Origin: Poseidonibacter ostreae
GTDB lineage: Bacteria; Campylobacterota; Campylobacteria; Campylobacterales; Arcobacteraceae
DNA: 64,000 nucleotides
Assembly: GCF_009208075.1 (NCBI RefSeq)
Contig: NZ_WFKJ01000009.1
Location: 1 to 64,000, forward strand
Direction: 5' to 3'
Shown here: positions 41,511 through 57,398 of the stretch, piece after piece
Layout of the letters: every line of letters starts with the position of its first letter
How positions within the stretch are numbered: the first letter of the stretch is position 1
Position numbers and translations under genes: made by a program
The notes under the pieces: generated by a model
The model's database searches: none
What the model saw: only the letters and a program-made list of their open reading frames with translations
Told to the model about the DNA's origin: nothing

Positions 41511-43244
41511 ATGAAAGAATTAATTGATTTTATAAAGTCAAAGAAGATAGAAGATACAAATTTTTATGCACAGTTAAAATGTACAAAAGAAGAAGCAATA
41601 TTATTACAGTTTATTACAAAAGAGTATACACAAGGAAGAGATAGTTTAGTTGTTATTGATGTATTAAGTAAATTTTATGATACAGAAAAGTTTGAGCATT
41701 TAGAGAAACTAAATTTAATTAAATCCTTACTTGAATTTGGATGGTTAGTTCAAATATCATTTGATCAAATCAAATTAAATGAGATATCAAAACTAGAGTT
41801 ATTAAACTCAAGTATTTCTTTATCAAGCTCATATTTAAAACTACTTGAAAATGGTTCAAATGATTTTGTGTTACCAGAAATTAAAAACTACTCAGACCAC
41901 TTAGAATACCTACAAGACCAGTTTTTTAAAATAGATTTAGCGCAGCAATTAAATGTTGTAAAAAAGAACTTTGCTATAAATTCACCTAGTTCAAATAGAT
42001 TAAAATCAAAGTTAGTATTACTAGAAAATAGAATTAAAGAGAGAATAAAAGTTACAAGCAACTCAATTATGCTAGAAGACTTTTTTAAAGAAAATGATTT
42101 AAAAGAGCAAGAGCAAACACTATTTTTAGCACTATTAAAAGAAGAGTACTCAGGAGGCGATGGTTCAATTAGAGATATGAACGCATTAATTGAATTAATC
42201 TCAAGTGATGATTATGAGAAGATTAAATATAGATCTTTACTAGAAGAGAGTTCAACTCTTGTAGCAAACTCACTAGTAGATTATGATGAGGTTTTAACAG
42301 CTTTTGGTGGAATTAATAGAAATTTCTATATTCCAGATGAGGTATTATATAAAATCTCACATCCAACTAAGAAAAAAACTAGAGGAACAAAAATAAAGCT
42401 TGATTCTATTATTAAAGAGCAAGATACTTTTGAGCTTATAAATACATCAAAAACACTTGAAGATGTTGTTTTAAATGACAAAACAAGAGAAACACTAAGT
42501 GCTTTATTAAAACAAGTGGATAAAGATGTAATAAACCGATTAAGACAATGGGGAATTAAAGATAAGAAAAAAGGGATTGAAGCAAAGATTATCTTTTATG
42601 GAGTAGCAGGAACTGGTAAAACATTAACAGCATTAGCAATGGCGAAATCTTTAAAAAAAGATGTACTTAGTTTTGACTGTTCAAAAATTTTATCTATGTA
42701 TGTAGGTGAAAGTGAAAAAAATGTTAGAAGTATTTTTGATAAATATTATGAGTTAAGAGAGCAAACAAAATCAGAGCCAGTATTGTTACTAAATGAAGCA
42801 GACCAGTTTTTAAGCGGAAGAACTTCAGGAGCTGGAAGTGGAAGTGATAAAATGCATAATCAGATGCAAAATATTTTTTTAGAGCAAATAGAAAAGTTTG
42901 ATGGCATCTTAATCGCAACAACAAATTTACTTGAAAATTTAGATAAAGCATTTTCAAGAAGATTCAATTATAAGATTGAATTTATTAAACCAAATAAAGC
43001 ACAAAGACTTGAACTTTGGAAAAAACTACTTCCTTCAAATCTTCCTTTAAGCCAAAACTTCGATATTGATAAGTTAGCTACTTATGATTTGACAGGTGGG
43101 CAAATAGAGCTAATTATTAAAAATACTGCTTATAAAATAGCAGCTACAGCTGAGCCTATTTTTAATGTTAAGGATTTTGAAGAGCAAATTACAAAAGAAC
43201 AAAAAGGGCAATTTGATAGTGAAAATAAAGTGGGGTTTTTCTAA
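41511..43244 (+). CDS. AAA-family ATPase with a duplicated N-terminal region
   Basis: A 577-residue AAA protein. The ATPase core has Walker A GVAGTGKT (364-371), a Walker B-like LLLNEAD (425-431) with Asn in place of the first Asp, sensor ATTN (469-472) and arginine finger SRRF (482-485), followed by the lid region TGGQIELIIKNTAYKI. The N-terminal 290 residues contain two similar helical segments (about 17-80 and 186-265) sharing an 'LxxFLKEEY-(T/S)-G-(R/G)D' motif, likely winged-helix-like. It resembles SpoVK/CbxX-type remodelling ATPases. The substrate is unknown; it follows a small membrane protein gene. Confidence 0.82.
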   Translation: MKELIDFIKSKKIEDTNFYAQLKCTKEEAILLQFITKEYTQGRDSLVVIDVLSKFYDTEKFEHLEKLNLIKSLLEFGWLVQISFDQIKLNEISKLELLNSSISLSSSYLKLLENGSNDFVLPEIKNYSDHLEYLQDQFFKIDLAQQLNVVKKNFAINSPSSNRLKSKLVLLENRIKERIKVTSNSIMLEDFFKENDLKEQEQTLFLALLKEEYSGGDGSIRDMNALIELISSDDYEKIKYRSLLEESSTLVANSLVDYDEVLTAFGGINRNFYIPDEVLYKISHPTKKKTRGTKIKLDSIIKEQDTFELINTSKTLEDVVLNDKTRETLSALLKQVDKDVINRLRQWGIKDKKKGIEAKIIFYGVAGTGKTLTALAMAKSLKKDVLSFDCSKILSMYVGESEKNVRSIFDKYYELREQTKSEPVLLLNEADQFLSGRTSGAGSGSDKMHNQMQNIFLEQIEKFDGILIATTNLLENLDKAFSRRFNYKIEFIKPNKAQRLELWKKLLPSNLPLSQNFDIDKLATYDLTGGQIELIIKNTAYKIAATAEPIFNVKDFEEQITKEQKGQFDSENKVGFF

Positions 43245-43493: not shown

Positions 43494-43883
43494 ATGACAC
43501 ACATGGAATTTGCCCATCCTTATTTTGGTGCATTTGTGATGTTTATAGTAACATTCACTGCATTCGGTGCTACAGTATGGCTATCACGGTATATTAGTAG
43601 AAAAATAGCACGTCTAGATACAGAAAAATTAAAGACTACATTATATGAATGTGGACCAGAAGTTACAAAACAACCTAATACAATATCAACACAATTTTAT
43701 TTAATAGCACTATTATTTATTCTCTTTGATGTAGAAATAATTTTCATGTTTCCATGGGCTGTTAACTTTAAGTTATTAGGATGGTTTGGATTTGTAGAAA
43801 TGTTACTATTTATCACACTATTATCAATCGGATTTTTATACGCATGGAAAAAAGGAGCCCTTGAATGGCACAGCATAAAGTAA
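43494..43883 (+). CDS. nuoA: NADH-quinone oxidoreductase subunit A
   Basis: Membrane subunit of complex I, 129 residues with three helices (about 12-32, 68-88, 98-118). The loop YECGPEV is the conserved quinone-site region facing NuoD. It is the first gene of a 14-gene nuo operon, with an AAAGGAAATATA ribosome binding site. The last 19 bases overlap nuoB. Confidence 0.95.
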
Positions 43884-44374
43884 ATTATTTACAAGATGGT
43901 GGCGCACCAATTAAATTAACAACTATTGATAAGTTAGTTAATTTTGGTCGTTCAAACTCACTATGGCCAATGACTTATGGATTAGCATGTTGTGCTATTG
44001 AAATGATGGCAACAGGAGCATCTAGATATGACTTCGATAGATTTGGTACTATTTTTAGAGCAAGTCCAAGACAATCTGATGTATTAATAATCGCAGGAAC
44101 TCTTACAAAAAAACATGCTGAGTTTATGAGAAGATTATATGACCAAATGCCAGACCCAAAATGGGTAATCTCAATGGGTTCATGTGCAAATACTGGAGGT
44201 ATGTTTAATACTTATGCAACAGTACAAGGTGCAGATAGAATTATTCCAGTTGATATTTATCTTCCAGGATGTGCTCCAAGACCAGAAACACTACAATACG
44301 CACTTATGACACTTCAAAGAAAAATCAGAAAAGAGTCAATTTTTAGAGCTCATAAGAAAAAAAGGTTAGTGTAA
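43865..44374 (+). CDS. nuoB: NADH-quinone oxidoreductase subunit B
   Basis: Carries iron-sulfur cluster N2, the last cluster before quinone. Ligands are visible: Cys42 and Cys43 ([10 protein letters not shown]), Cys107 (MGSCANTGG) and Cys136 (LPGCAPRPE). At 169 residues it is normal. It overlaps nuoA by 19 bases and shares the final A of its stop codon with the nuoC ATG. Confidence 0.97.
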
Positions 44375-45177
44375 TGAGAAAATATACGCCAAAAGATAAT
44401 GTTCAAAGACAAGCACCTTTTTCAGATAGATTCTTCGTAAGTCCAAGTGTTCCTAGACTAGATATAAATTCAGATGAAATTTTTTCAAAAGATTATGAAT
44501 CTTTTTGTAAATCATTTAAAGTAGAAGATGCTTATATTGAACATACTCATCTTGTATTGAATGTTGATAAAAATGATATTGTAGAAATCATGAAGTTTTT
44601 AAGTGAAGAACTAGAGTATGACATGCTTATGGAAATGTCTGCTATTGATTATCTAGCAGCTAAAGATGGATATGAATTATTTTATGAAATGCTTTCACTT
44701 TCAAAACACAAAAGACTTAGAATCAAATGTTTCTTAAACAAAAATGATACAGTTGAATCTGTTACTTCAGTATTTGATTCAGCAAACTGGTCTGAGAGAG
44801 AAATGTACGATATGTTAGGTGTTAAAGTTTTAAATCATCCTAATATGAAAAGAATTATTATGCCAGATGATTGGTATGACCACCCATTAAGAAAAACTTA
44901 CCCGCTTCAAGGTGATGAGGCTGCATCATGGTATGAAGTTGATAAAATCTTTGGAAAAGAAGCTAGAGATGTAATAGGACCAGAGCAAAGAGATCCTGCT
45001 GCAATTGATAGATATGACACAGAACGATTTGCAAGACTAGGACATGAGGTTCCATTTCAAACTGATATTACTGAATTTGAACCTGAAACGCCAATCTCTT
45101 ATCAAGAAGAAGATAGCTCAAAAATTATGAAAACTTTAAAACCTGAAGAATCAGTTGTTTTAAAAAGAAGAAGGTAA
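44374..45177 (+). CDS. nuoC: NADH-quinone oxidoreductase subunit C
   Basis: Peripheral-arm 30-kDa subunit, 267 residues. The signature segment is [20 protein letters not shown] followed by [16 protein letters not shown] near residue 165. It has extra N-terminal residues and a charged C-terminal tail ([18 protein letters not shown]) beyond the usual ending. NuoC and NuoD are separate genes here, unlike in E. coli where they are fused. Confidence 0.95.
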
Positions 45178-45181
45178 TAGT

Positions 45182-46408
45182 ATGCAACAACCAAATAGAT
45201 TAAAACCTTTCTTTGAAAATATTAACTTCGAGAGAGAAGATAATACAATGATGGTGAACTTCGGACCACAGCATCCATCAGCTCATGGACAATTAAGACT
45301 TATTTTAGAACTACAAGGTGAAGAAGTAGTAAAATCTCGACCAATGATTGGATACCTTCACAGAGGTATGGAAAAAATGGCTGAGAATATGATTTATAAT
45401 GAATTCTTACCAACAACAGATAGAATGGATTATATTGCAGCAACTTCAAATAACTATGGTTATGCCTTAGCTATTGAAAAACTTCTAGGTATTGAAGCTC
45501 CAAGACGAGCTGAAATTATTAGAACAATGCTTTTAGAATTAAATAGAATCACTTCTCACCTTTTCTGGTTAGCAACACACGCACTTGATGTTGGTGCAAT
45601 GTCTATGTTCCTTTACTGCTTTAGAGAAAGAGAATATGCAATGGACTTAATTGAAGATTATTGTGGGGCAAGATTAACGCATAGTGCTGTTAGAATTGGT
45701 GGAGTTCCTTTAGACTTACCATCAAATTGGATTGCTGATTGTTTATCATTCCTAGATATTTTAGAGACAGAAATTAAAAAATATGAAGGTCTTTTAACAG
45801 AAAATAGAATCTGGAAAATGAGACTTGAAAATGTAGGTATTATTACTCCTAAAATGGCAAAATCTTGGGGATGTTCAGGTATTGCTTTAAGAGGAAGTGG
45901 TATCAAATGGGATTTAAGAAAAGAGATGCCTTACGGTATTTATGATGAATTAGATTTTGATGTTCCAATTGCAGAGACTTGTGATTCTTATGGAAGATAT
46001 AAAATTTGTATTGAAGAGATGTATCAATCTTCAAGAATTTTAAAACAATTAGTTCCTATGTATGAAAAAAGTGAATCTCAATTAATGGCTCATGCGCCAA
46101 ATTACATTTCAGCTCCAAAAGAGCAAATAATGACTCAAAACTATTCTTTAATGCAACACTTTGTTTTAGTAACTCAAGGTATGAGACCACCTGTTGGTGA
46201 AGTATATGTAGCAACTGAATCACCAAAGGGCGAACTAGGTTATTATGTTGTTAGTGATGGAAGTCCTTATGCATATAGAATGAAAATTAGAACACCAAGT
46301 TTTCAGCATACTGCATTATTAGAAGAGATACTTGTTGGATTACAATTAGCTGATGTTGTTACATTAATCGGAAACTTAAACATAGTTTTCGGTGAGATTG
46401 ATAGATAA
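45182..46408 (+). CDS. nuoD: NADH-quinone oxidoreductase subunit D
   Basis: 49-kDa subunit forming the quinone site with NuoB. The 408-residue protein shows [50 protein letters not shown] and a C-terminal FGEIDR, all standard. The quinone-site His and Tyr region (HPSAHG and DRMDY) is intact. It lies 4 bases after nuoC. Confidence 0.97.
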
Positions 46409-46419
46409 GGGGAAGCATT

Positions 46420-46695
46420 ATGAAAAGATTTGATTTAAGACATTTAAAAAATGATTTCTATGACAGAATGCTTGAACTGCTCGATAAGCAAATTCAAGAT
46501 GGTGAAAATGCAATTATTATATTTGAAATTGGAGATTTTGAAAATGTTCAAAAATCCGCAGATGTAATATATGAAGCTGGATATACATTAATGAACTCAA
46601 TTAAATTTACAGAAGTTGATTGGACATTAGTTATAAAAAAAGTTGCACCAGAACCTAGAGTTGTTGAAGAAGAAGCTAAAGAGGAAGTGAAATAA
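46420..46695 (+). CDS. Campylobacterota NuoE-position subunit (HP1264 type)
   Basis: A 91-residue protein at the position of NuoE but unrelated to the 24-kDa thioredoxin-like NuoE: there is no cysteine at all, so no 2Fe-2S cluster N1a. It has an alpha/beta pattern (DGENAIIIFEIGDFENVQKS, then WTLVIKKVAPEPR) and an acidic tail. In Helicobacter and Campylobacter the equivalent proteins replace the NADH module. A flavin-linked role has been proposed for the Helicobacter protein, but no flavin motif can be seen here. Its stop overlaps the next ATG by one base. Confidence 0.85.
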   Translation: MKRFDLRHLKNDFYDRMLELLDKQIQDGENAIIIFEIGDFENVQKSADVIYEAGYTLMNSIKFTEVDWTLVIKKVAPEPRVVEEEAKEEVK

Positions 46696-47504
46696 TGAAT
46701 AAAAAAGAACTAATCTCTAAAAGTGATTTCATTCTTTCTTTAGGAACAATGCTTTCTAATAATAAAGAAGAGGTAAGAAATTCAATTATTGAATCAATTG
46801 CAAAAACAAATGCGCAATTTGTTTATATGCACCCAATTGATAATATTGATTTAAAACTTTATTATACTCAATTTATAAAATATGAAGCAGGAAGTGAAGA
46901 GGGTATTTTAGCCTTAATCCTTGATGCTTTTGTAAAAGAATCTACTAGTGATATTCAAAAATATATAAATGATTTAGATTTAGGTTATATCTCTGCTGAA
47001 AGTTCTGCTGGAGAAGAAGAGTTTGAAGAAGCTTATGAAAACTCAAAAGAATCTCAATTTAAAACATTAATTATTGGTGATGATTTAATTGAACATCCAA
47101 GAGTTGAAAATATAGTAAAACTTCTTAGTATCATAAAAAAATACACAGATTTTAATCTAATTGTTTTAGATAACGATTTTGAAGAAAAAATAGACTCATG
47201 TGATAACTTTGATTTAGAAGAAGTAGAAGATTTAAAATCTTTTGATGGAACTGTAGTATATAGACTTATTGAAGATGAATCTACTGAAGATTTAATAGTA
47301 AGTGCTTCTTTTTCAAGAATCGCAAAAGTAGCTAACAAAGATGAAGTATATTTAAACTATAAAACTTCAAAAGTAAAAAAGAGTATTAAAGTTGATGAAA
47401 AATTACATGGAACAATCGCAATTGCTAAAATTACAGATTCTAATGAAGAAATTTTCACTAACTATAGATACAAACAAGTAAAAATAGAAAAGGTTGATGC
47501 ATAA
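46695..47504 (+). CDS. Campylobacterota NuoF-position subunit (HP1265 type), NuoG-like
   Basis: A 269-residue protein in the NuoF slot with none of NuoF's NADH, FMN or 4Fe-4S motifs. Instead its segments align in order with the C-terminal half of the adjacent NuoG: FILSLGTMLSNN (12-23) with FVISVGSYLKSD; VYMHPID (43-49) with LYFHPIA; and LIIGDDLIEHPRVENIVKLL (125-144) with LMVGEDLITHPNAANLAKLC, both followed by TDF. It is thus probably a NuoG-derived structural subunit capping the peripheral arm. It cannot accept electrons from NADH itself. Its stop shares one base with the nuoG ATG. Confidence 0.82.
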   Translation: MNKKELISKSDFILSLGTMLSNNKEEVRNSIIESIAKTNAQFVYMHPIDNIDLKLYYTQFIKYEAGSEEGILALILDAFVKESTSDIQKYINDLDLGYISAESSAGEEEFEEAYENSKESQFKTLIIGDDLIEHPRVENIVKLLSIIKKYTDFNLIVLDNDFEEKIDSCDNFDLEEVEDLKSFDGTVVYRLIEDESTEDLIVSASFSRIAKVANKDEVYLNYKTSKVKKSIKVDEKLHGTIAIAKITDSNEEIFTNYRYKQVKIEKVDA

Positions 47505-49978
47505 TGAGTGATATGATTACATTAACAATTGATGGAAAGCAAGTAGAAGCTAAAGATGGTGAATCAATCTTAAATGTAGCTCGTGCAAATGATGTATTTG
47601 TTCCAGCTGTTTGTTATTTAACAAGATGTTCACCAACACTTGCTTGTAGATTATGTTTAGTTGAAGCTGATGGAAAACAAGTATATGGTTGTAATACAAA
47701 AGTAAAAGCTGATATGGAAGTGGTTACTGAAACTCCTACAATTGCAAAAGAAAGACGTGCAATTATGGAAGTTTACGATGTAAATCATCCATTACAGTGT
47801 GGTGTTTGTGACCAAAGTGGTGAGTGTGAATTACAAAACTATTCATTATATATGAAAGTTGATTCACAAAGCTATAGTATAAAAGATGTTCATAGACCAA
47901 CTGCACATTGGGGAGTTATGAATTATGACCCAGGTTTATGTATTGTATGTGAAAGATGTGTAACTGTATGTAAAGATATGGTTGGTTCAAACGCACTTAG
48001 TACAGTAAAAAGACCATCAGATGCAATTGAAAAGACTTTTAAATCTGAAATGCCAAAAGATGCATATGCAATGTGGAATAAACTTAATAAGTCACTTATT
48101 GGTTATGATGCTGATGCATGTACTGATTGTGGTGAGTGTATAGCTGCTTGTCCTGTCGGAGCTTTAGTTTCACATGACTTCCAATATACATCAAACTCTT
48201 GGGAATTAAAAAAGATTCCAGCTGCAAATTCACACTCAAGTGATTGTGCTTTTATTTATTATGAAATAAAACAAGATTCAATTGATAATCACGAAACAAA
48301 AAGAATTTATAGAGTTACAAATGAACCTCATTATTCAACATTAAATGGTGCGGGAAGATTTGCTTATGATTTTGATAATAAAGTACAGACAAAAGATACA
48401 ACTGCATTTATAAATGCAATTGAAGCGTTTAAAAAAGCAAAAACAATTAAGTTCAATTCATTTATTACAAATGAAGAAGCATTGCTTTTACAAAAAATAT
48501 CAGATAAAACTGGTGCAAAATTAGTAAATGAAGATGCAAGACTATATCAAGAGTTTTTATCTAACTACTCAAGTACTGCAGGAAATTCTTTATACTCTTC
48601 AACACTAACAGCTGTGCATGATTCAAACTTTGTAATTTCTGTTGGTTCTTATTTAAAATCTGATTTACCAAATGCAAGATATGCATTAAATAACTCCGTT
48701 ATTATGAATAAAGGTGCTGCTTTATACTTCCACCCAATTGCAGATCCAGTTATGGAAAAAATTGGTAAAAAAGGAAAAACAACAGATTTTATTTACCATG
48801 ATGCACTAGCTCAAGAATCAATTCTTTATTTTATTCTTTATAAGTTTGGAAAAGAATTACCTGAAAATGTTAAAACATATATTGACTCTTTAACTGAAAC
48901 TAGAACAAAAACAGTAACTGAAACTATTAAAGAAAAAGTTGTTGAAATTGTAAAAGATGAAGAAACTGGTGAAGAAAAAGAAGTTTCTAAAATGGTTCCT
49001 AAAAAAGTTTCTAAAGAAGTTGAGTTTGAATATATTTCACTTTTAGAAGACTTTGGGAAAGATGAATCATTTATTGAACTAATTGATACAATGCTTGCTA
49101 AAAAAGACACTTACTCTTTAATGGTTGGTGAAGATTTAATCACTCATCCAAATGCAGCAAACTTAGCAAAATTATGTGGTCTTATTTCTAGATGTACAGA
49201 TTTTGATGTTGTGATTATTCCAACATCTACAAATACATTAGGTGTTTCGCAAATCTGTACACTTTCAAAGCAAGAAGAAGGCTTTACAGTTGGATATAAC
49301 GAAGCAGCAGATTTCCAACTTTCAGCACTTGGTGATGGAGATTTAGATATTCCAGCACTTAACCAACAAGAAGGTACTTTTACAAATATTGACCAAAAAA
49401 TTATTCCTACAAATGCAGCAGTTGGATTTAAAGGCTATGCTTTAAATAATATTGCAAATATGATTTTAGATGTTGATGTAGAATACACAATTGATTATAC
49501 ATCGCAGCTTCCTGTATCAAAAGGTTATCAAGCTGTAGAGTTTGATGATTTACCAAATATGTTTGGAAATGATAGAGTTGAATATAGAGGTTATGATTTA
49601 AAAGCTAATGAAATAGAGTTTAATGATGAAGTTAAAGAAATTACTTCAAAGAAATTAGAAGTAAATGAAAATGAAATTGTAATTTACAAAGCTAATCCAA
49701 TTAATCAATTTAATGAATTTACTGCAATGTCTCATGAATTTAAAGATGAACTTCAATCAGGTATTTTCTTCTCAACAGCAATGTTTGAGAAGTTAGAATT
49801 AGAAGCTGGAAGTAAAGTAAAAGTAAGTGCAAATAATGAAACTTTAGAACTAGAAGCATTTACTGATATTCAAATTACTGGTGAAATTGCTTATGTTTCT
49901 ACATTTGATAAAAACTCTGCATCTAAAGCTTTATTTGATACTTTTAGATTCAATACAGCAGTAGTAGAAAAGGTATAA
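47504..49978 (+). CDS. nuoG: NADH-quinone oxidoreductase subunit G
   Basis: Large iron-sulfur subunit, 824 residues. The N-terminal 2Fe-2S domain has Cys37, Cys48, Cys51 and Cys63; then HPLQCGVCDQSGEC (N5-type His/Cys ligands), CIVCERCVTVC (146-156) and CTDCGECIAAC (206-216). The extra cluster site of molybdopterin-type domains is absent (only Cys248 remains). Residues about 370-660 are the molybdopterin-oxidoreductase-like domain without cofactor. A lysine/glutamate-rich insert occupies about 465-508. It follows the NuoG-like subunit with a one-base overlap. In the absence of NuoE and NuoF, electrons must enter here or close by from another donor. Confidence 0.94.
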   Translation: MSDMITLTIDGKQVEAKDGESILNVARANDVFVPAVCYLTRCSPTLACRLCLVEADGKQVYGCNTKVKADMEVVTETPTIAKERRAIMEVYDVNHPLQCGVCDQSGECELQNYSLYMKVDSQSYSIKDVHRPTAHWGVMNYDPGLCIVCERCVTVCKDMVGSNALSTVKRPSDAIEKTFKSEMPKDAYAMWNKLNKSLIGYDADACTDCGECIAACPVGALVSHDFQYTSNSWELKKIPAANSHSSDCAFIYYEIKQDSIDNHETKRIYRVTNEPHYSTLNGAGRFAYDFDNKVQTKDTTAFINAIEAFKKAKTIKFNSFITNEEALLLQKISDKTGAKLVNEDARLYQEFLSNYSSTAGNSLYSSTLTAVHDSNFVISVGSYLKSDLPNARYALNNSVIMNKGAALYFHPIADPVMEKIGKKGKTTDFIYHDALAQESILYFILYKFGKELPENVKTYIDSLTETRTKTVTETIKEKVVEIVKDEETGEEKEVSKMVPKKVSKEVEFEYISLLEDFGKDESFIELIDTMLAKKDTYSLMVGEDLITHPNAANLAKLCGLISRCTDFDVVIIPTSTNTLGVSQICTLSKQEEGFTVGYNEAADFQLSALGDGDLDIPALNQQEGTFTNIDQKIIPTNAAVGFKGYALNNIANMILDVDVEYTIDYTSQLPVSKGYQAVEFDDLPNMFGNDRVEYRGYDLKANEIEFNDEVKEITSKKLEVNENEIVIYKANPINQFNEFTAMSHEFKDELQSGIFFSTAMFEKLELEAGSKVKVSANNETLELEAFTDIQITGEIAYVSTFDKNSASKALFDTFRFNTAVVEKV

Positions 49979-49979
49979 T

Positions 49980-50972
49980 ATGGAAACAAGTATTATAATA
50001 GAAACAATTATCAAAGTAATAGTAGTTTTAACAGTATTTTCAGCGCTTGCAGGATTTACAACTTATATTGAAAGAAAAATATTAGCATTTATGCAACGAA
50101 GACTTGGTCCTACAAATGTTGGTCCTTATGGTCTTTTACAAATTGCAGCAGATGGTATTAAACTTTTTACAAAAGAAGATTTTATTCCAGCAAATGCAAA
50201 TAAACCTATCTTTATGATTGCCCCAATCATCACAGCAGCAACAGCATTTATTTCAATGAGTGCTATTCCTTTTTTCCCAGAATTTGAGATGTTTGGTTAT
50301 ACCGTAAGACCAATTATAAGTGATATTAATGTGGGTGTTTTATTTGTACTATCAGTTGGTGGTGTTGGACTTTATGGACCATTATTAGGTGGTATGAGTT
50401 CTGCAAATAAATGGGCACTACTTGGAGGTGCTAGAACTGCAATACAACTTTTATCTTATGAAGTAGTTTCAGGTCTTTCACTTTTAGCTCCTTTAATGAT
50501 GGTTGGAAGTTTATCTTTAATTGATATTAATAACTATCAAGCAGGTGGAATTTCAAATTGGATTGTTTGGTCTCAACCATTAGCATTTGTTTTATTTGTT
50601 ATTGCAGGTTTTGCTGAAACAAATAGAACACCATTTGATTTACTTGAGCATGAAGCAGAATTAGTTGCAGGTTATGCAACTGAGTATTCTGGTATGAGAT
50701 GGGGTATGTTCTTTATTGGTGAGTATGCAGCATTATTTACAATTGCTTTCTTAACTGCACTAATTTTCTTAGGTGGATTTGAGCCATTATGGTTTATTCC
50801 AGGTGGATTAGCAATTGTACTAAAAGTAATGTTCTTGATTTTCTTATTCTTATGGACAAGAGCATCTTGGCCACACATTAGACCAGATCAATTAATGTGG
50901 TTATGTTGGAAAATATTAATGCCTTTAGCACTACTAAATATTTTAGTTACTGCTTTAGTGATAATGATTTAG
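49980..50972 (+). CDS. nuoH: NADH-quinone oxidoreductase subunit H
   Basis: Membrane subunit (ND1) that joins the peripheral and membrane arms and lines the quinone channel. The 330-residue protein has about eight helices and the conserved ERKILAFMQRRLGPTNVGPYG, ETNRTPFDLLEHEAELVAGY and TRASWPHIRPDQLM segments. It starts 1 base after the nuoG stop. Confidence 0.97.
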   Translation: METSIIIETIIKVIVVLTVFSALAGFTTYIERKILAFMQRRLGPTNVGPYGLLQIAADGIKLFTKEDFIPANANKPIFMIAPIITAATAFISMSAIPFFPEFEMFGYTVRPIISDINVGVLFVLSVGGVGLYGPLLGGMSSANKWALLGGARTAIQLLSYEVVSGLSLLAPLMMVGSLSLIDINNYQAGGISNWIVWSQPLAFVLFVIAGFAETNRTPFDLLEHEAELVAGYATEYSGMRWGMFFIGEYAALFTIAFLTALIFLGGFEPLWFIPGGLAIVLKVMFLIFLFLWTRASWPHIRPDQLMWLCWKILMPLALLNILVTALVIMI

Positions 50973-50981
50973 GGGAGAGTT

Positions 50982-51602
50982 ATGGGATTCGAAGAATTTA
51001 AAAATAGAAACATATCAGAAGACTATGTAGTAGTTCAAGAAGATAATTATCCTAAAACATCTTGGGACACATTTAAGCAAGTAGTTACAAGATCTGTAAA
51101 GGGTGAATTATTTACAGGTTTAAAAATTACATTTAAGATGATGACAGGTGCTTTATTTAATGGTGAAATGGCAACTGTTCAATATCCAGCAGAAAAACTG
51201 CCAATAGGTCCACGATATAGAGCGGTACATAGATTACTTGTATTATTAGAATCAGGTGAAGAAAGATGTATTGGTTGTGGATTATGTGAAAAAATTTGTA
51301 TTGCAAATTGTATTAGAATGGAAACTAGAGTTGATGAAAACTCTAGAAAAGAAGTTTTAGAATATACAATTAATATGGGTAGATGTATTTTTTGTGGTTA
51401 CTGTGCAGAAGTTTGTCCAGAGCTTGCAATTGTTCATGGAGGAAGATATGAAAATGTTTCAGAACAAAGAGCATCTTTCTCACTTAAAGAAGATATTTTA
51501 ACACCATTTGATCAGTTAAACCAACAAACAGAGTTTGCTGGTTTTGGTTCAGTATCACCAGATGCTGATGAAAAAATTAAAAAAACACCATTGTCGTACT
51601 AA
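50982..51602 (+). CDS. nuoI: NADH-quinone oxidoreductase subunit I
   Basis: Carries two 4Fe-4S clusters (N6a and N6b) between NuoG and NuoB. Ligand sets are Cys96, 99, 102, 106 (CIGCGLCEKIC) and Cys135, 138, 141, 145 (CIFCGYCAEVC). The usual proline after Cys106 is replaced by Ile-Ala-Asn-Cys. The 206-residue protein has a longer N-terminus than E. coli NuoI. A GGGGAG site precedes the ATG. Confidence 0.96.
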   Translation: MGFEEFKNRNISEDYVVVQEDNYPKTSWDTFKQVVTRSVKGELFTGLKITFKMMTGALFNGEMATVQYPAEKLPIGPRYRAVHRLLVLLESGEERCIGCGLCEKICIANCIRMETRVDENSRKEVLEYTINMGRCIFCGYCAEVCPELAIVHGGRYENVSEQRASFSLKEDILTPFDQLNQQTEFAGFGSVSPDADEKIKKTPLSY

Positions 51603-51611
51603 GGAGTATAG

Positions 51612-52202
51612 ATGTTTGAAATAGTAGCTTTTTGTCTGTTTTCAGTTTTAACTATAACTATGTTTAGTATTACAGTATTAACAAGCAATGCTTTATATGC
51701 GTTAAGTTCATTAGCAGCGGGAATGATTTTTATATCTGCATTTTTCTTTTTATTAAATGCAGATTTCCTAGGTGCTGTACAAATCGTAGTTTATACTGGT
51801 GCGATTATGGCACTTTATGCCTTTGGAATGATGTTCTTTGATTCATTATCTGAAGTAAAAGAGAAGGTTAAAAATCCAAGATTAGTATTTTTATTATCAG
51901 GAATGGTAGCTTTAATTGTTGTAGTTATTTTTATCTCACCAATTTTAGGTGAAAATATTGATGCAAACTTACCAATTAATCCAAGTTATGGAAATACAGT
52001 AGATGTTGGTTTAGTATTATTTACTAAATACTTAGTTCCTTTTGAAGTTGCTGCAATTATGTTATTAATTGCCATGATAGGTGGAATTGTATTAGCAGGA
52101 AAGAAAATGGAAGTATCATATTCTGATATGACTGAAGAAGAAATTGATGCACATATTGAAGCTCAAAATGAGTTAGAAGCATCAAAAAAGGATGTTAAAT
52201 GA
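51612..52202 (+). CDS. nuoJ: NADH-quinone oxidoreductase subunit J
   Basis: Membrane subunit ND6, 196 residues with five helices. The conserved third helix region LGAVQIVVYTGAIMALYAFGMM contains the pi-bulge needed for coupling. Its C-terminus is acidic (MTEEEIDAHIEAQNELEASK). It overlaps nuoK by 4 bases. Confidence 0.95.
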   Translation: MFEIVAFCLFSVLTITMFSITVLTSNALYALSSLAAGMIFISAFFFLLNADFLGAVQIVVYTGAIMALYAFGMMFFDSLSEVKEKVKNPRLVFLLSGMVALIVVVIFISPILGENIDANLPINPSYGNTVDVGLVLFTKYLVPFEVAAIMLLIAMIGGIVLAGKKMEVSYSDMTEEEIDAHIEAQNELEASKKDVK

Positions 52203-52498
52203 CACTTAACGCTTATTTGATATTATCAACACTTTTATTTTGTATTGGATTAGTTGGAGTATTAAGAAGAAAGAATGTTTTAATGCTTTTCTTCTCAACA
52301 GAAATTATGTTAAATGCAGTAAATGTTGGGCTTGCAGCAATTTCTAAATTCCATGGAGATTTAGCAGGGCAAATGTTTGCTTTCTTTATTATTGCAGTTG
52401 CTGCTAGTGAAGTTGCTATTGGATTAGGTCTTTTAATTCTTTGGTATAAAAGAACAGGTTCTATTAACTTAGATGATATTGCTAAGATGAAGGGGTAG
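52199..52498 (+). CDS. nuoK: NADH-quinone oxidoreductase subunit K
   Basis: Membrane subunit ND4L, 99 residues, three helices. The two conserved membrane glutamates are seen in FSTEIMLNAVNVG and AASEVAIGLGL. The ATG lies inside the nuoJ stop (ATGA), so translation is coupled. Confidence 0.96.
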   Translation: MTLNAYLILSTLLFCIGLVGVLRRKNVLMLFFSTEIMLNAVNVGLAAISKFHGDLAGQMFAFFIIAVAASEVAIGLGLLILWYKRTGSINLDDIAKMKG

Positions 52499-52500
52499 TA

Positions 52501-54372
52501 ATGGAAAAATATGTATATATAGCACTTTTTGCCCCACTAGTTGGTTCTTTAGTTGCTGCTTTATTCTCAATGAGAGGAAAGATTGCCTTTACAGGATGGT
52601 TTACATCATTTATGTTAGCTGTTTCAATGTTTGCATCTTTAAATCTTCTATCATTTATTTATTCAACAGATACAGTTTTAAATATAACTCTATTTCAGTG
52701 GATAAAAGCAGGTAATTTAAATATTCCTTTTGGTTTTATTATTGACCATGTAAGTGTTGTGATGATGACAGTTGTAACTGTGGTTTCAACAATGGTTCAT
52801 ATTCACTCAATTGGTTATATGGAAAATGATGAAGGTTTTAATAGATATTTCTCTTATCTTTCAGCTTTCGTTTTCTCAATGCTTGTTCTTGTAATGAGTG
52901 ATAACTTTGCTGTTCTTTTCATTGGATGGGAAGGTGTTGGAGTTTGTTCATGGCTATTAATTGGATTCTGGTATAAAAAAGAATCAGCATCATGGGCAGC
53001 TAATGAAGCCTTTATTATGAATAGAGTGGGAGATTTAGGTCTTCTTCTTGGTATGTTCTTAATTTACTGGAATTTAGGTTCGTTACAATATTCACATGTA
53101 TTTGAAAATATTGCAAGTTTAGAAACTAGTACTATTGCATGGATTGGAATACTATTATTCGTAGGAGCAATGGGTAAATCAGCGCAATTCCCATTACATA
53201 CATGGCTAGCAGATGCGATGGAGGGACCAACTCCTGTTTCTGCATTAATTCATGCAGCAACTATGGTAACAGCTGGTGTTTATTTAGTAGTACGTGCAAA
53301 TGAATTATATGTATTAGTTCCTGAAGTTGGATATGCAATTGCTTGTTTAGGTGCATTTGTTGCAATATTTGCTGCATCAATGGCACTTGTTCATAATGAT
53401 ATGAAAAGAATTATCGCTTACTCAACACTATCTCAACTTGGATATATGTTTGTTGCTGCTGGTCTTGGAGCTTATTGGGTTGCATTATTTCACCTTGTAA
53501 CTCATGCTTTCTTTAAATCAGTATTATTCTTAGGTGCTGGTAATGTTATGCATGCTATGAATGATGAACTTGATATTAGAAAAATGGGTGGATTACATAG
53601 TAAAATGAAATCAACTTCAATTATTATGACAATTGCATCTGTTGCTCTTGCTGGTATTTTCCCTCTTGCTGGTTTCTTCTCAAAAGATAAAATCTTAGAA
53701 GCAGCCTTTAATGGTGATGCTTATTTCTTATGGTTAATTTTATGGATAACAGCAGGTTTAACAGCATTTTATTCATTTAGATTAGTAATGAAAGTTTTCC
53801 ATGGAGAACAAAACTATTCAAATGAAGATTTCCATCCTCATGAAGCAAAAAGTTTTGTAATAGCTGCAATGATTCCTCTTGCTATTTTAGCAGTAATTGC
53901 TGGATGGTTTGAGCATGCATTTATAGATTTTGTTACTAAAACTTTACCAACTTGGGAAGCTAGTAATACTGCATCTTCAACAGTTTGGATTTTAATTCTT
54001 GTAACAAGTGCAGTTGCCATTGCTGGTATTGCTTATGCAGTTATTAAATATAGAAATGGTGGATTTAGTAAAGAATGGGAAAATAAAGGGATTTATAAAC
54101 TTTTATCAAACCAATATTATATTCCTCATTTCTATGAAAACTTTATTACAAAACCATATCATCAGCTTTCAGTTTGGGTATTTGAAGTTATTGAAATAAA
54201 AATGATTGACAATACAATTGAGGGAATTGCAAGATTAATTAATAAAGCTGGTGGAAAAGCTAGAGTTATTCAATCAGGTAATTTATCATCATCATTAAGA
54301 CTTATGGTTTTAGGATTAATTTTAGGATTAGTTTTAGCTTTAGTGTTATCGTTATTTGGAGGAGTTAAGTAA
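52501..54372 (+). CDS. nuoL: NADH-quinone oxidoreductase subunit L
   Basis: Distal antiporter-like proton-pumping subunit (ND5), 623 residues with about 16 helices. Key segments: FIGWEGVGVCSWLLIGFWYK (essential Glu), KSAQFPLHTWLADAMEGPTP, ALIHAATMVTAGVYL and HNDMKRIIAYSTLSQLGYM (coupling Lys). The C-terminal lateral helix region (after about residue 520) is present. It begins 2 bases after nuoK. Confidence 0.97.
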   Translation: MEKYVYIALFAPLVGSLVAALFSMRGKIAFTGWFTSFMLAVSMFASLNLLSFIYSTDTVLNITLFQWIKAGNLNIPFGFIIDHVSVVMMTVVTVVSTMVHIHSIGYMENDEGFNRYFSYLSAFVFSMLVLVMSDNFAVLFIGWEGVGVCSWLLIGFWYKKESASWAANEAFIMNRVGDLGLLLGMFLIYWNLGSLQYSHVFENIASLETSTIAWIGILLFVGAMGKSAQFPLHTWLADAMEGPTPVSALIHAATMVTAGVYLVVRANELYVLVPEVGYAIACLGAFVAIFAASMALVHNDMKRIIAYSTLSQLGYMFVAAGLGAYWVALFHLVTHAFFKSVLFLGAGNVMHAMNDELDIRKMGGLHSKMKSTSIIMTIASVALAGIFPLAGFFSKDKILEAAFNGDAYFLWLILWITAGLTAFYSFRLVMKVFHGEQNYSNEDFHPHEAKSFVIAAMIPLAILAVIAGWFEHAFIDFVTKTLPTWEASNTASSTVWILILVTSAVAIAGIAYAVIKYRNGGFSKEWENKGIYKLLSNQYYIPHFYENFITKPYHQLSVWVFEVIEIKMIDNTIEGIARLINKAGGKARVIQSGNLSSSLRLMVLGLILGLVLALVLSLFGGVK

Positions 54373-55899
54373 ATGGAAAATATCTTATCAATGCTGATAT
54401 TTTTTCCAGCAGTAGCAGCAACTGTAGGATTTATGATTCATAAAGATTCTATGAGACAGTTTGGTGTAGTTGTTACTATTGTTGAGTTTGTATTAGCTCT
54501 TTTATTATGGTATCACTTTGATACTAATGTTGCACAAATGCAGTTTGTTCAAACATTCCCACTTATTAGCTCTTATGGTATTAATTATGTGGTTGGAATT
54601 GATGGTGTTTCATTATTCTTAATTATTATGATTACGTTTATGACGATGATATCTGTAATTGGATTAACAGAAAAAAGAGCAGTTAAAAACTTAATTATTA
54701 CAATTCTTTACCTTGAAATGACAATGGTTGGAGTTTTTGTATCTTTAGATTTAATTATGTTCTATATTTTCTGGGAACTTACACTTATTCCAATGTTTTA
54801 TATTATTGGTTTTTGGGGTGCAGAGAGAAGATTCCACGCAGCTATTAAGTTCTTCTTATATACATTTATAGGTTCACTAATTATGCTTATTGGTATGTTA
54901 TATTTTGGATATATTTACCATGAAACTACTGGTGTTTGGAGCTTCAATTTACTTGATTGGTATAGTGTTGTTTTACCATTTGATGTTCAATTATGGCTAT
55001 TTATTGCTTTCTTCTTTGGTTTTGCAGTTAAAGTACCTATGTTTCCTTTCCATACTTGGTTACCTCTTGCACACAGTCAAGCGCCAACTATTGGTTCTAT
55101 TGTATTAGCAGCTGTATTACTTAAAATGGAAACTTATGGATTTATTAGATTCTCACTTCCACTGTTTCCAGATGCGAGTGTATACTTTATGCCATTTATG
55201 GCAACGCTTGGAATCATTGCTATTATTTATACGGCAATGGTGGCTTATGCGCAAGAAGATATGAAACAAATGATTGCATACTCTTCAATTTCACATATGG
55301 GTGTAATTATTCTTGGAGTATTTGCATTAAATGCTGAGGGGATTTCAGGAGCAGTATTCTTAATGATTGGACATGGTGTTGTATCAGGAGCACTATTTAT
55401 GAGTGTTGGTGTACTTTATGATAGAAGAAAAACTAAGATGATTAAAGAGTTTGGTGGATTAGCTAAAAATATGCCAATGTTCGCATTAGTTTATGCGGTT
55501 GTATTAATGGCTTCAATTGGTTTACCTTTAACAATTGGGTTTGTTGGAGAGTTTTTATCTCTTCTTGGATTCTTTAAAGTTTCACCAATCTTAACATTTG
55601 TTGCATCTTTAACTATTGTATTAAGTGCTGTATATATGTTATCAATGTATAAAAGAACATTCTTTGGAGAATTAATAAAAAAAGAGAATAAAGATATGAA
55701 AGATATTCATGGACGAGAGCTTCTAGCTTTAGGTTCACTAGTTTTCTTAATTATTTCATTAGGTGTTTATCCAAAAGTTATCTTAGAACCACTTGATATC
55801 TCAGTTCAAAAAGTTATAAAAATTATGGATGTAAAATCTGTAGAAGAGAGTACTAAAGAGAGACTTCGTTCTTTAAATTCAATTGGGGAGGTTAAATAA
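54373..55899 (+). CDS. nuoM: NADH-quinone oxidoreductase subunit M
   Basis: Antiporter-like subunit ND4, 508 residues. Signatures are FYIFWELTLIPMFYIIGFWG, KVPMFPFHTWLPLAHSQAPT, VLLKMETYGFIRF and QEDMKQMIAYSSISHMGVI. It starts immediately after the nuoL stop and shares a base with nuoN. Confidence 0.97.
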   Translation: MENILSMLIFFPAVAATVGFMIHKDSMRQFGVVVTIVEFVLALLLWYHFDTNVAQMQFVQTFPLISSYGINYVVGIDGVSLFLIIMITFMTMISVIGLTEKRAVKNLIITILYLEMTMVGVFVSLDLIMFYIFWELTLIPMFYIIGFWGAERRFHAAIKFFLYTFIGSLIMLIGMLYFGYIYHETTGVWSFNLLDWYSVVLPFDVQLWLFIAFFFGFAVKVPMFPFHTWLPLAHSQAPTIGSIVLAAVLLKMETYGFIRFSLPLFPDASVYFMPFMATLGIIAIIYTAMVAYAQEDMKQMIAYSSISHMGVIILGVFALNAEGISGAVFLMIGHGVVSGALFMSVGVLYDRRKTKMIKEFGGLAKNMPMFALVYAVVLMASIGLPLTIGFVGEFLSLLGFFKVSPILTFVASLTIVLSAVYMLSMYKRTFFGELIKKENKDMKDIHGRELLALGSLVFLIISLGVYPKVILEPLDISVQKVIKIMDVKSVEESTKERLRSLNSIGEVK

Positions 55900-57398
55900 T
55901 GGAACCTATTTCAATTAATATTGATTCTTTAAATTTAGGAACTTTAGCACCAATGCTTATTGCAATAATTGGGGCTATTAGTATTTTATTAACAGACCTT
56001 TTTAATAAAGAAAAACACAAATCTTTATATGTAGTTTTAGTTGTACTGTTTTTAGTATTTGATTTATTTACACTACTTGCATATAGCGGTGAACCAGATG
56101 GAATGTTTGATTTAATGCTTCTTGATGGTATTGCGATTTTATCTCAATGTATTATTATTTGTGGAGCTATTTTATTTATATTCTTATCTTTATCAAAACT
56201 AAGATTCCAAGAGTTTAGATATGCTGAGTTCTTTGCTCTTTATTTATTTACAATAGCAGGGTTCCAGTTTATGGTAAGTTCTGATTCTTTAATCTTAATC
56301 TTTGTTGGATTAGAAACAGCATCTTTATCTTTATATACAATGATTGCAATGCATAATAGAATGACATCAATTGAAGCTGCTGTTAAGTACTTTACAATGG
56401 GTGCACTTGCAGCTGCGTTCTTTGCTTTTGGTGCTATGATTTTCTACGGCCTTACTGGTTCATTAGATTTATCTCAAATCTCAGAAATAATTGTTCAAGA
56501 AAATTTCTTATCTAGTGAAAATTATGCAAACCATGTATTTGTTTTAACTGGATTTGTATTTATGTTTGCAGCTTTAGGATTTAAACTATCTTTGTTCCCA
56601 TACCATGTATGGGTTCCAGATGTTTATAGAGGTTCAAGTTCTGCAATGGCTGGGTTCTTATCAGTTGTTCCAAAAATGGCAGGTTTTGTAGTTGCAATTA
56701 GATTCTTTGAAGTATTTATTGCAAGTGATGATATGATTATTAAAACTATGCTTTATACAACAATAGTTGCAACTATTACAATACCAAACTTAATAGCCCT
56801 ACATCAAACAGATATTAAAAGAATGCTAGCATACTCTTCAATATCAAATGCAGGTATGGCAATGGCTGCTGTTTATATTGGAACTACACAAGCAACTACA
56901 GCACTATTTTTATACTGGATTTTATTTACAATAACTAACTTTGGTGCCTTTGGTATGTTGTGGTTAAATAGAGGGAAAGAGCAAAAAGATTATGAATCTC
57001 CATATACTTTTGAAAAGTATTCAGGATTAGTTCAAATTTCGCCATTTGCAGCTTCAATTTTAGCAATGTTCCTTTTTGCATTAACAGGACTTCCTCCATT
57101 TGCATTATTCTGGGGAAAAATGTATTTAGTTGCAAGTGCAGTAAATGCAGGTCAAATTGCACTTGCTGTAATTATTGTATTAAACTCAGCAATTGCTGCT
57201 TATTATTACTTAAGACCAATTTCTTATATGTTCTTAAAAGATCCAATTGAGGGTGCAAATAAGAAGTTTATGCAAAACGCATCAACACCAATGAAATCTG
57301 TAATTGGTTTATGTGTATTCCTTGCAATTGTTTCAGTTTTAGCAATAGAACCACTTTTACAAGTTATTACTTACTACGTTACAAACGCAGGGTTTTAG
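55899..57398 (+). CDS. nuoN: NADH-quinone oxidoreductase subunit N
   Basis: Antiporter-like subunit ND2, 499 residues. It has FVGLETASLSLYTMIAMHNR, KLSLFPYHVWVPDVYRGSSS and HQTDIKRMLAYSSISNAGMA, plus LTGLPPFALFWGKMYL near the end. It is the last gene of the operon and is followed directly by a strong hairpin. Confidence 0.96.
   Translation: MEPISINIDSLNLGTLAPMLIAIIGAISILLTDLFNKEKHKSLYVVLVVLFLVFDLFTLLAYSGEPDGMFDLMLLDGIAILSQCIIICGAILFIFLSLSKLRFQEFRYAEFFALYLFTIAGFQFMVSSDSLILIFVGLETASLSLYTMIAMHNRMTSIEAAVKYFTMGALAAAFFAFGAMIFYGLTGSLDLSQISEIIVQENFLSSENYANHVFVLTGFVFMFAALGFKLSLFPYHVWVPDVYRGSSSAMAGFLSVVPKMAGFVVAIRFFEVFIASDDMIIKTMLYTTIVATITIPNLIALHQTDIKRMLAYSSISNAGMAMAAVYIGTTQATTALFLYWILFTITNFGAFGMLWLNRGKEQKDYESPYTFEKYSGLVQISPFAASILAMFLFALTGLPPFALFWGKMYLVASAVNAGQIALAVIIVLNSAIAAYYYLRPISYMFLKDPIEGANKKFMQNASTPMKSVIGLCVFLAIVSVLAIEPLLQVITYYVTNAGF

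Follow-up and report, generated by a model that had tools for sequence, protein, structure and literature searches.

The protein encoded in the NuoF position of the Poseidonibacter ostreae nuo operon (the F-slot protein, or short F) is probably what remains, after reduction, of a second NuoG (G2) that was once full-length, with its core kept for a job that is independent of complex I. The window analysed was a 64,000-nucleotide stretch of contig NZ_WFKJ01000009.1, and relatives were collected from 150 Campylobacterota genomes and 80 named loci. For Campylobacterota as a whole we lean towards a wider reading, in which a redox-stripped complex I paralogue is now a free-standing, complex-I-independent and possibly essential protein, reached in parallel by trimming of G2 after loss of a module formed by G2 and a flavoprotein (F').

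Within a complete Campylobacterota nuo operon the F-slot gene is flanked by nuoX (PF16514) and nuoG, and its product is by this position the NuoY of the NuoX/NuoY pair (HP1264/HP1265, Cj1575c/Cj1574c). Coordinates are collected in Table 1. Three sequence blocks by which the sequence-only reading had likened the protein to NuoG were present in the same order in both (NuoG at 47504-49978). BLASTP aligned residues 7-158 with NuoG 371-572 at E=9e-15, in a single pairwise comparison. The NCBIfam model of Campylobacterota NuoG (PRK08493.1) matched the F-slot protein in three stretches (E=2.6e-25), with a score of 88.7 bits that is below the model cut-off of 591 bits. Pfam returned no match to the protein at E<=10, and neither Pfam nor the PDB sequences yielded a hit when queried with the short protein or its profile. 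A profile built from 38 relatives was aligned to NuoG (G1) with hhalign at a probability of 99.7% and E=1.6e-25, significant over 255 columns; this alignment takes in the C-terminal ~95 residues, which were absent from the blocks noted earlier.

An AlphaFold model of the F-slot protein (37 sequences) had a pLDDT of 94.6 and a pTM of 0.91. Its best PDB fold matches were molybdopterin oxidoreductases of the formate dehydrogenase / DMSO reductase (MopB) family, which is the fold family of the NuoG C-terminal half; the top match was FDH-H (TMq 0.73, E=1.3e-8, about 7% identity). A fold different from that of NuoG, which would have spoken against the relationship, was not found. The F-slot protein is a homologue of the NuoG C-terminal half over nearly its whole length. 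It resembles NuoG / Nqo3 (75-kDa subunit) in the ~255-column homology, the MopB fold and the operon, but is without the N-terminal FeS domain, has an internal block deleted and is kept in genomes without this complex I. Unlike MopB enzymes, it carries no molybdopterin or FeS machinery.

The missing N-terminal half takes with it the Cys/His ligands for clusters N1b, N4 and N5, and no Cys column was occupied in more than 12 of the 38 short F proteins. Neither the FMN/NADH domain nor the N3 4Fe-4S domain of NuoF / Nqo1 was present, the NCBIfam match being only to NuoG. The F-slot protein is probably not the electron-input subunit.

Table 1. Positions of the features in the window, and of F' genes in four loci that carry G2.
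Feature	Position	Strand	Remark
nuoABCD-X-Y-GHIJKLMN operon holding the F-slot gene	43494..57398	+	phmmer mapping
AAA ATPase gene	41511..43244	+	upstream of nuoA
E-slot protein NuoX, HP1264 family	46420..46695	+	PF16514, E=5.9e-36
F-slot protein NuoY (equivalent of Cj1574c / HP1265)	46695..47504	+	269 aa; apparent truncated G2, no conserved Cys
MopB-type alpha/beta core, residues 7-158	46713..47168	+	homologous to NuoG 371-572 and G2 ~368-523
Signature LDxGYLSAESNxGEEExE, residues 94-111	46974..47027	+	in short F, orphans and G2; not in NuoG (G1)
C-terminal beta domain, residues 173-268	47211..47498	+	homologous to last ~110 residues of NuoG/G2
NuoG (G1), partner copy	47504..49978	+	824 aa
NuoG aa 371-572	48614..49219	+	matched by F-slot residues 7-158
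NuoG about aa 577-712	49232..49639	+	internal deletion, no equivalent in short F
F', example	L050:2044-4041	+	
F', example	L042:9582-11585	-	
F', example	L094:1955-3994	+	
F', example	L144:4518-6689	+	

The MopB half of the window NuoG contains a highly charged, repeat-like insertion, ETRTKTVTETIKEKVVEIVKDEETGEEKEV, at 48866-49060 (about aa 455-519), without counterpart in G2 or the F-slot protein. The same genome also carries a second complex I of another type (G000:C74:13393-19906), comprising a NuoCD-type 544-aa frame, a 478-aa short NuoG and a NuoH-like gene.

Relatives of the F-slot protein were found by six-frame search in 137 of the 150 genomes, and the matching frame was 670-785 aa long in many. 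A full-length second NuoG, G2 (~750 aa), occupies the F slot in 32 of the 150, with gene maps of the order nuoABCD-X-[..]-G2-G1-HIJK. G2 carries a PF00384 molybdopterin match, and its FeS ligand motifs are mostly kept, some being lost in L049 and L056. The short-F profile was aligned to G2 at E=1.8e-58 with 40% identity over 255 columns; the first ~345 residues of G2 and one internal block of about 115 stayed outside the alignment. The C-terminal beta domain of the F-slot protein starts directly after this internal deletion, and the G2 counterpart of the alpha/beta core falls within the PF00384 match in L042. Residues E64, D95, G97, E102, F206, K211 and G239 are common to short F, the orphans described below and G2; only G239 is conserved also in NuoG (G1). 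The short protein is G2 minus its FeS half and one internal block.

Recent gene conversion between the tandem copies was observed in family f8 (L050, L051, L094), where G1 and G2 are 97-100% identical over about 180 aligned residues and 23-57% identical in most other alignment windows. The converted block falls within or close to the region missing from short forms.

Every G2 operon examined has a gene of ~670 aa, F', between nuoX and G2. Its product contains the NuoF N3 domain (PF10589), Fer4_20 and Pyr_redox_2 (flavin/NAD(P)H), and so joins the N3-cluster domain of NuoF to a GltD/NfnB-like FAD/NAD(P)H domain. F' is present in 32 of the 150 genomes, exactly those with full-length G2 (32/32, one of them, G041, entered through locus L144). 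Among the 80 named loci, of which the nearest named species to the window is Poseidonibacter lekithochrous (88%), F' was found in 38 of 41 G2 loci and in 0 of 39 short-form loci; the three G2 loci without it start inside G2 at a contig end. The MAG titles of four loci, L193, L196, L204 and L210 (Helicobacter pylori PMSS1, Desulfosporosinus, Helicobacter cetorum), are at odds with their sequences, which resemble Arcobacteraceae or other free-living Campylobacterota, and these are probably mislabelled bins.

Sequence matches link F' to Nfn-ABC subunit A (E=8.7e-97) and to StnC (E=3.3e-85), the latter a GltD-like NADPH domain fused to a NuoG-like domain (PMC10482914). It differs from the Stn (StnABC) and Nfn-ABC transhydrogenases in that F' and G2 are separate genes within a complete membrane complex I operon, and in that F' has the N3 domain of NuoF but lacks its FMN/NADH domain. 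In the ancestral arrangement, electrons probably entered through this GltD-type NAD(P)H flavoprotein and passed to two serially connected NuoGs. It had been proposed that the NuoG copy replaced the NADH-oxidising subunit; since the duplicate was paired with its own NuoF/GltD-like flavoprotein, G2 did not do so by itself.

The distribution of the short gene was set against that of the complex. Thirty-two of the 150 genomes were without Campylobacterota NuoD; 25 of these keep a short F gene (orphan F) and seven have neither operon nor F. The nuo operon is kept without F in five Helicobacter-type genomes (L139-L143; nuoABCD-X-G-H). The nuoG of L139 appears as two neighbouring ORFs of 305 and 510 aa. 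An obligatory complex I subunit would be expected wherever the complex occurs and nowhere else, and 25 + 5 genomes depart from this pattern. The seven genomes without operon and F, together with the five operons without F, indicate that F is not universally needed. Within one Helicobacteraceae genus (coded g17), F is present in G016, G018 and G119 and absent from G050 and G124. Family names for the coded genomes were inferred from named loci and gene content.

Orphan F is often found exactly at the site of operon deletion. In Aliarcobacter (A. vitoriensis, A. cryaerophilus) it immediately follows the counterpart of the AAA gene located upstream of nuoA in the window, and in several Campylobacter/Helicobacter family genomes (f3, f2) directly before pflA, which comes after nuoN in their operon-bearing relatives. 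Contamination or assembly gaps are an unlikely cause, as many of the genomes are single-contig and >=99% complete, with the deletion in place. The neighbours of orphan F (mqnD/murB, pflA, hemN) vary between lineages, and no shared partner was found by neighbourhood. NuoX is absent from 24 of the 25 orphan genomes; its only remnant is a decayed, frameshifted fragment in G087, upstream of an intact orphan F (L080, 5584-6414, minus strand).

Orphan pairs gave dN/dS of 0.04-0.3 in most resolvable lineages, as expected of purifying selection. Survival of the gene in genomes lacking the complex, mostly under such selection, indicates that the job of the core does not need this complex I; as many relatives keep the gene after losing this complex, the F-slot protein probably has another job. 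Values of 0.4-0.6 in Aliarcobacter suggest that selection there may be weaker. These values, and the presence of another complex I in some orphan lineages (f1 g2, f3 g15), would suit a reading in which the core has a purely structural, capping function in complex I and the orphans are slowly decaying or attached to a second, CD-fused complex I. We consider this reading improbable: seven F-keeping genomes (G072, G016, G018, G119, G087, G103, G071) have no NuoH-like gene and so lack every kind of complex I, intact orphan F genes occur in at least eight genera belonging to four families, with several dN/dS values below 0.3, the signature residues are invariant in orphans, and in G087 nuoX decayed and F did not.

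The same distribution bears on the proposal that NuoF gave way to a duplicated NuoG domain, the two copies forming a flavodoxin-fed entry point as a pseudo-dimer at the tip of the complex. A pseudo-dimer cannot be the only role of a protein that is kept without this complex I and is missing from five intact operons. The proposal draws on the homology and adjacency of the F-slot protein and NuoG, on the operon context and on a report crediting Cj1574c of C. jejuni with passing electrons from flavodoxin (PMC4178425). It is nevertheless unlikely, as the ancestral duplicate was a full NuoG with its own flavoprotein, the short form is without conserved Cys or FeS motif, and flavodoxin was absent by profile search from four orphan genomes of family f5. 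Co-occurrence with flavodoxin was also considered as a reason for the retention of F and was rejected, because flavodoxin presence does not track F: the flav_long profile had no match in G004, G006, G028, G040 and G008, all of which keep F, and flavodoxin is present in genomes lacking F.

The origin of the two copies was examined with trees of the shared core and of the FeS domain. The shared-core tree divides into G1 and F+G2, each clade being supported at 100/99. In the FeS-domain tree G1+G2 are apart from nine outgroup rows (100/97), with G1 and G2 each monophyletic (99/95 and 82/80); the outgroups are limited. Plasmid and E. coli NuoGs were used in no other capacity than as outgroups. Within that limit, this topology favours an in-house duplication of NuoG. 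The tandem duplication predates the divergence of the sampled Campylobacterota families. The earlier suggestion that NuoG was duplicated, and no foreign protein recruited, thus holds in that the copy is a paralogue, and fails in that a full-length NuoG was duplicated and not one domain.

In a denser tree the Sulfuricurvum short forms nest in Sulfurimonadaceae G2 (99/92), the short form of L176 groups with Arcobacteraceae G2 (97/90) and separately from the other Arcobacteraceae short forms (98/98), and the short form of L181 lies near Sulfurovaceae G2. A single short clade was rejected by the AU test in this denser, shorter-branched set (p=0.0001); the same test on the wider, phylum-level tree did not reject a single origin (p=0.36). 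The cut points are nearly identical at each truncation, leaving nearly the same ~260-aa core. The short form thus appears, from these trees, to be a later and repeated truncation of G2, always accompanied by loss of F'. That the short form was instead ancestral, and that full-length G2 is a later product of fusion to, or recombination with, NuoG in F'-bearing lineages, is very improbable despite the recent G1-G2 exchange in family f8, where identity drops from 97-100% in one block to 28-48% around much of the remainder. The short forms nest in several separate G2 clades, and the FeS domains of G2, far from being scattered among G1, group together as a sister clade of G1 with weak support (82/80). 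On this view NuoG was duplicated, the copy was at first part of an input module, and the gene in the window is what is left of it.

Under the preferred reading, reduction of G2 to a remnant, F' and G2 would have passed electrons from NAD(P)H along an extended FeS chain to NuoG (G1). Loss of F' would have made the redox half of G2 useless, and it would have decayed. The complex may now take electrons from flavodoxin or ferredoxin, with the F-slot protein having no redox role. No cofactor site is visible in the F-slot sequence, which favours a cofactor-free binding or scaffold role for the retained core, possibly through E64, D95, E102, E107 and K211, which are shared with G2.

NuoX and NuoY have been treated as distinct, novel genes and described as replacing nuoEF (PMC6682613; PMC4178425), and HP1264, of the NuoX family, is reported to bind FMN (PMC6269979), in contrast to the F-slot protein with no visible cofactor site. 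NuoY is here a descendant of NuoG. Neither the NuoG ancestry of NuoY, nor the orphans, nor the F'-G2 module were found in the papers searched, most subscription papers lying outside that search; in this literature F' is undescribed as part of complex I operons. A review states that A. butzleri has nuoEF 'instead of' nuoXY (PMC6682613). This would need amending if A. butzleri, which is itself not among the identified loci, keeps an orphan nuoY like its sampled relatives. By TraDIS, Cj1575c was essential in C. jejuni and C. coli, with Cj1574c mentioned alongside (PMC10077673).

These findings alter the interpretation of the unusual complex I in relatives of Campylobacter, Helicobacter, Arcobacter and Sulfurimonas, the 'NuoF replacement' being a redox-dead second NuoG. 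Weerakoon and Olson (2008) reportedly found Cj1574c to be essential in C. jejuni and the remaining nuo genes dispensable. Such essentiality would be explained by a complex-I-independent role. The independent reductions to one core provide a natural experiment on which part of the protein selection keeps.
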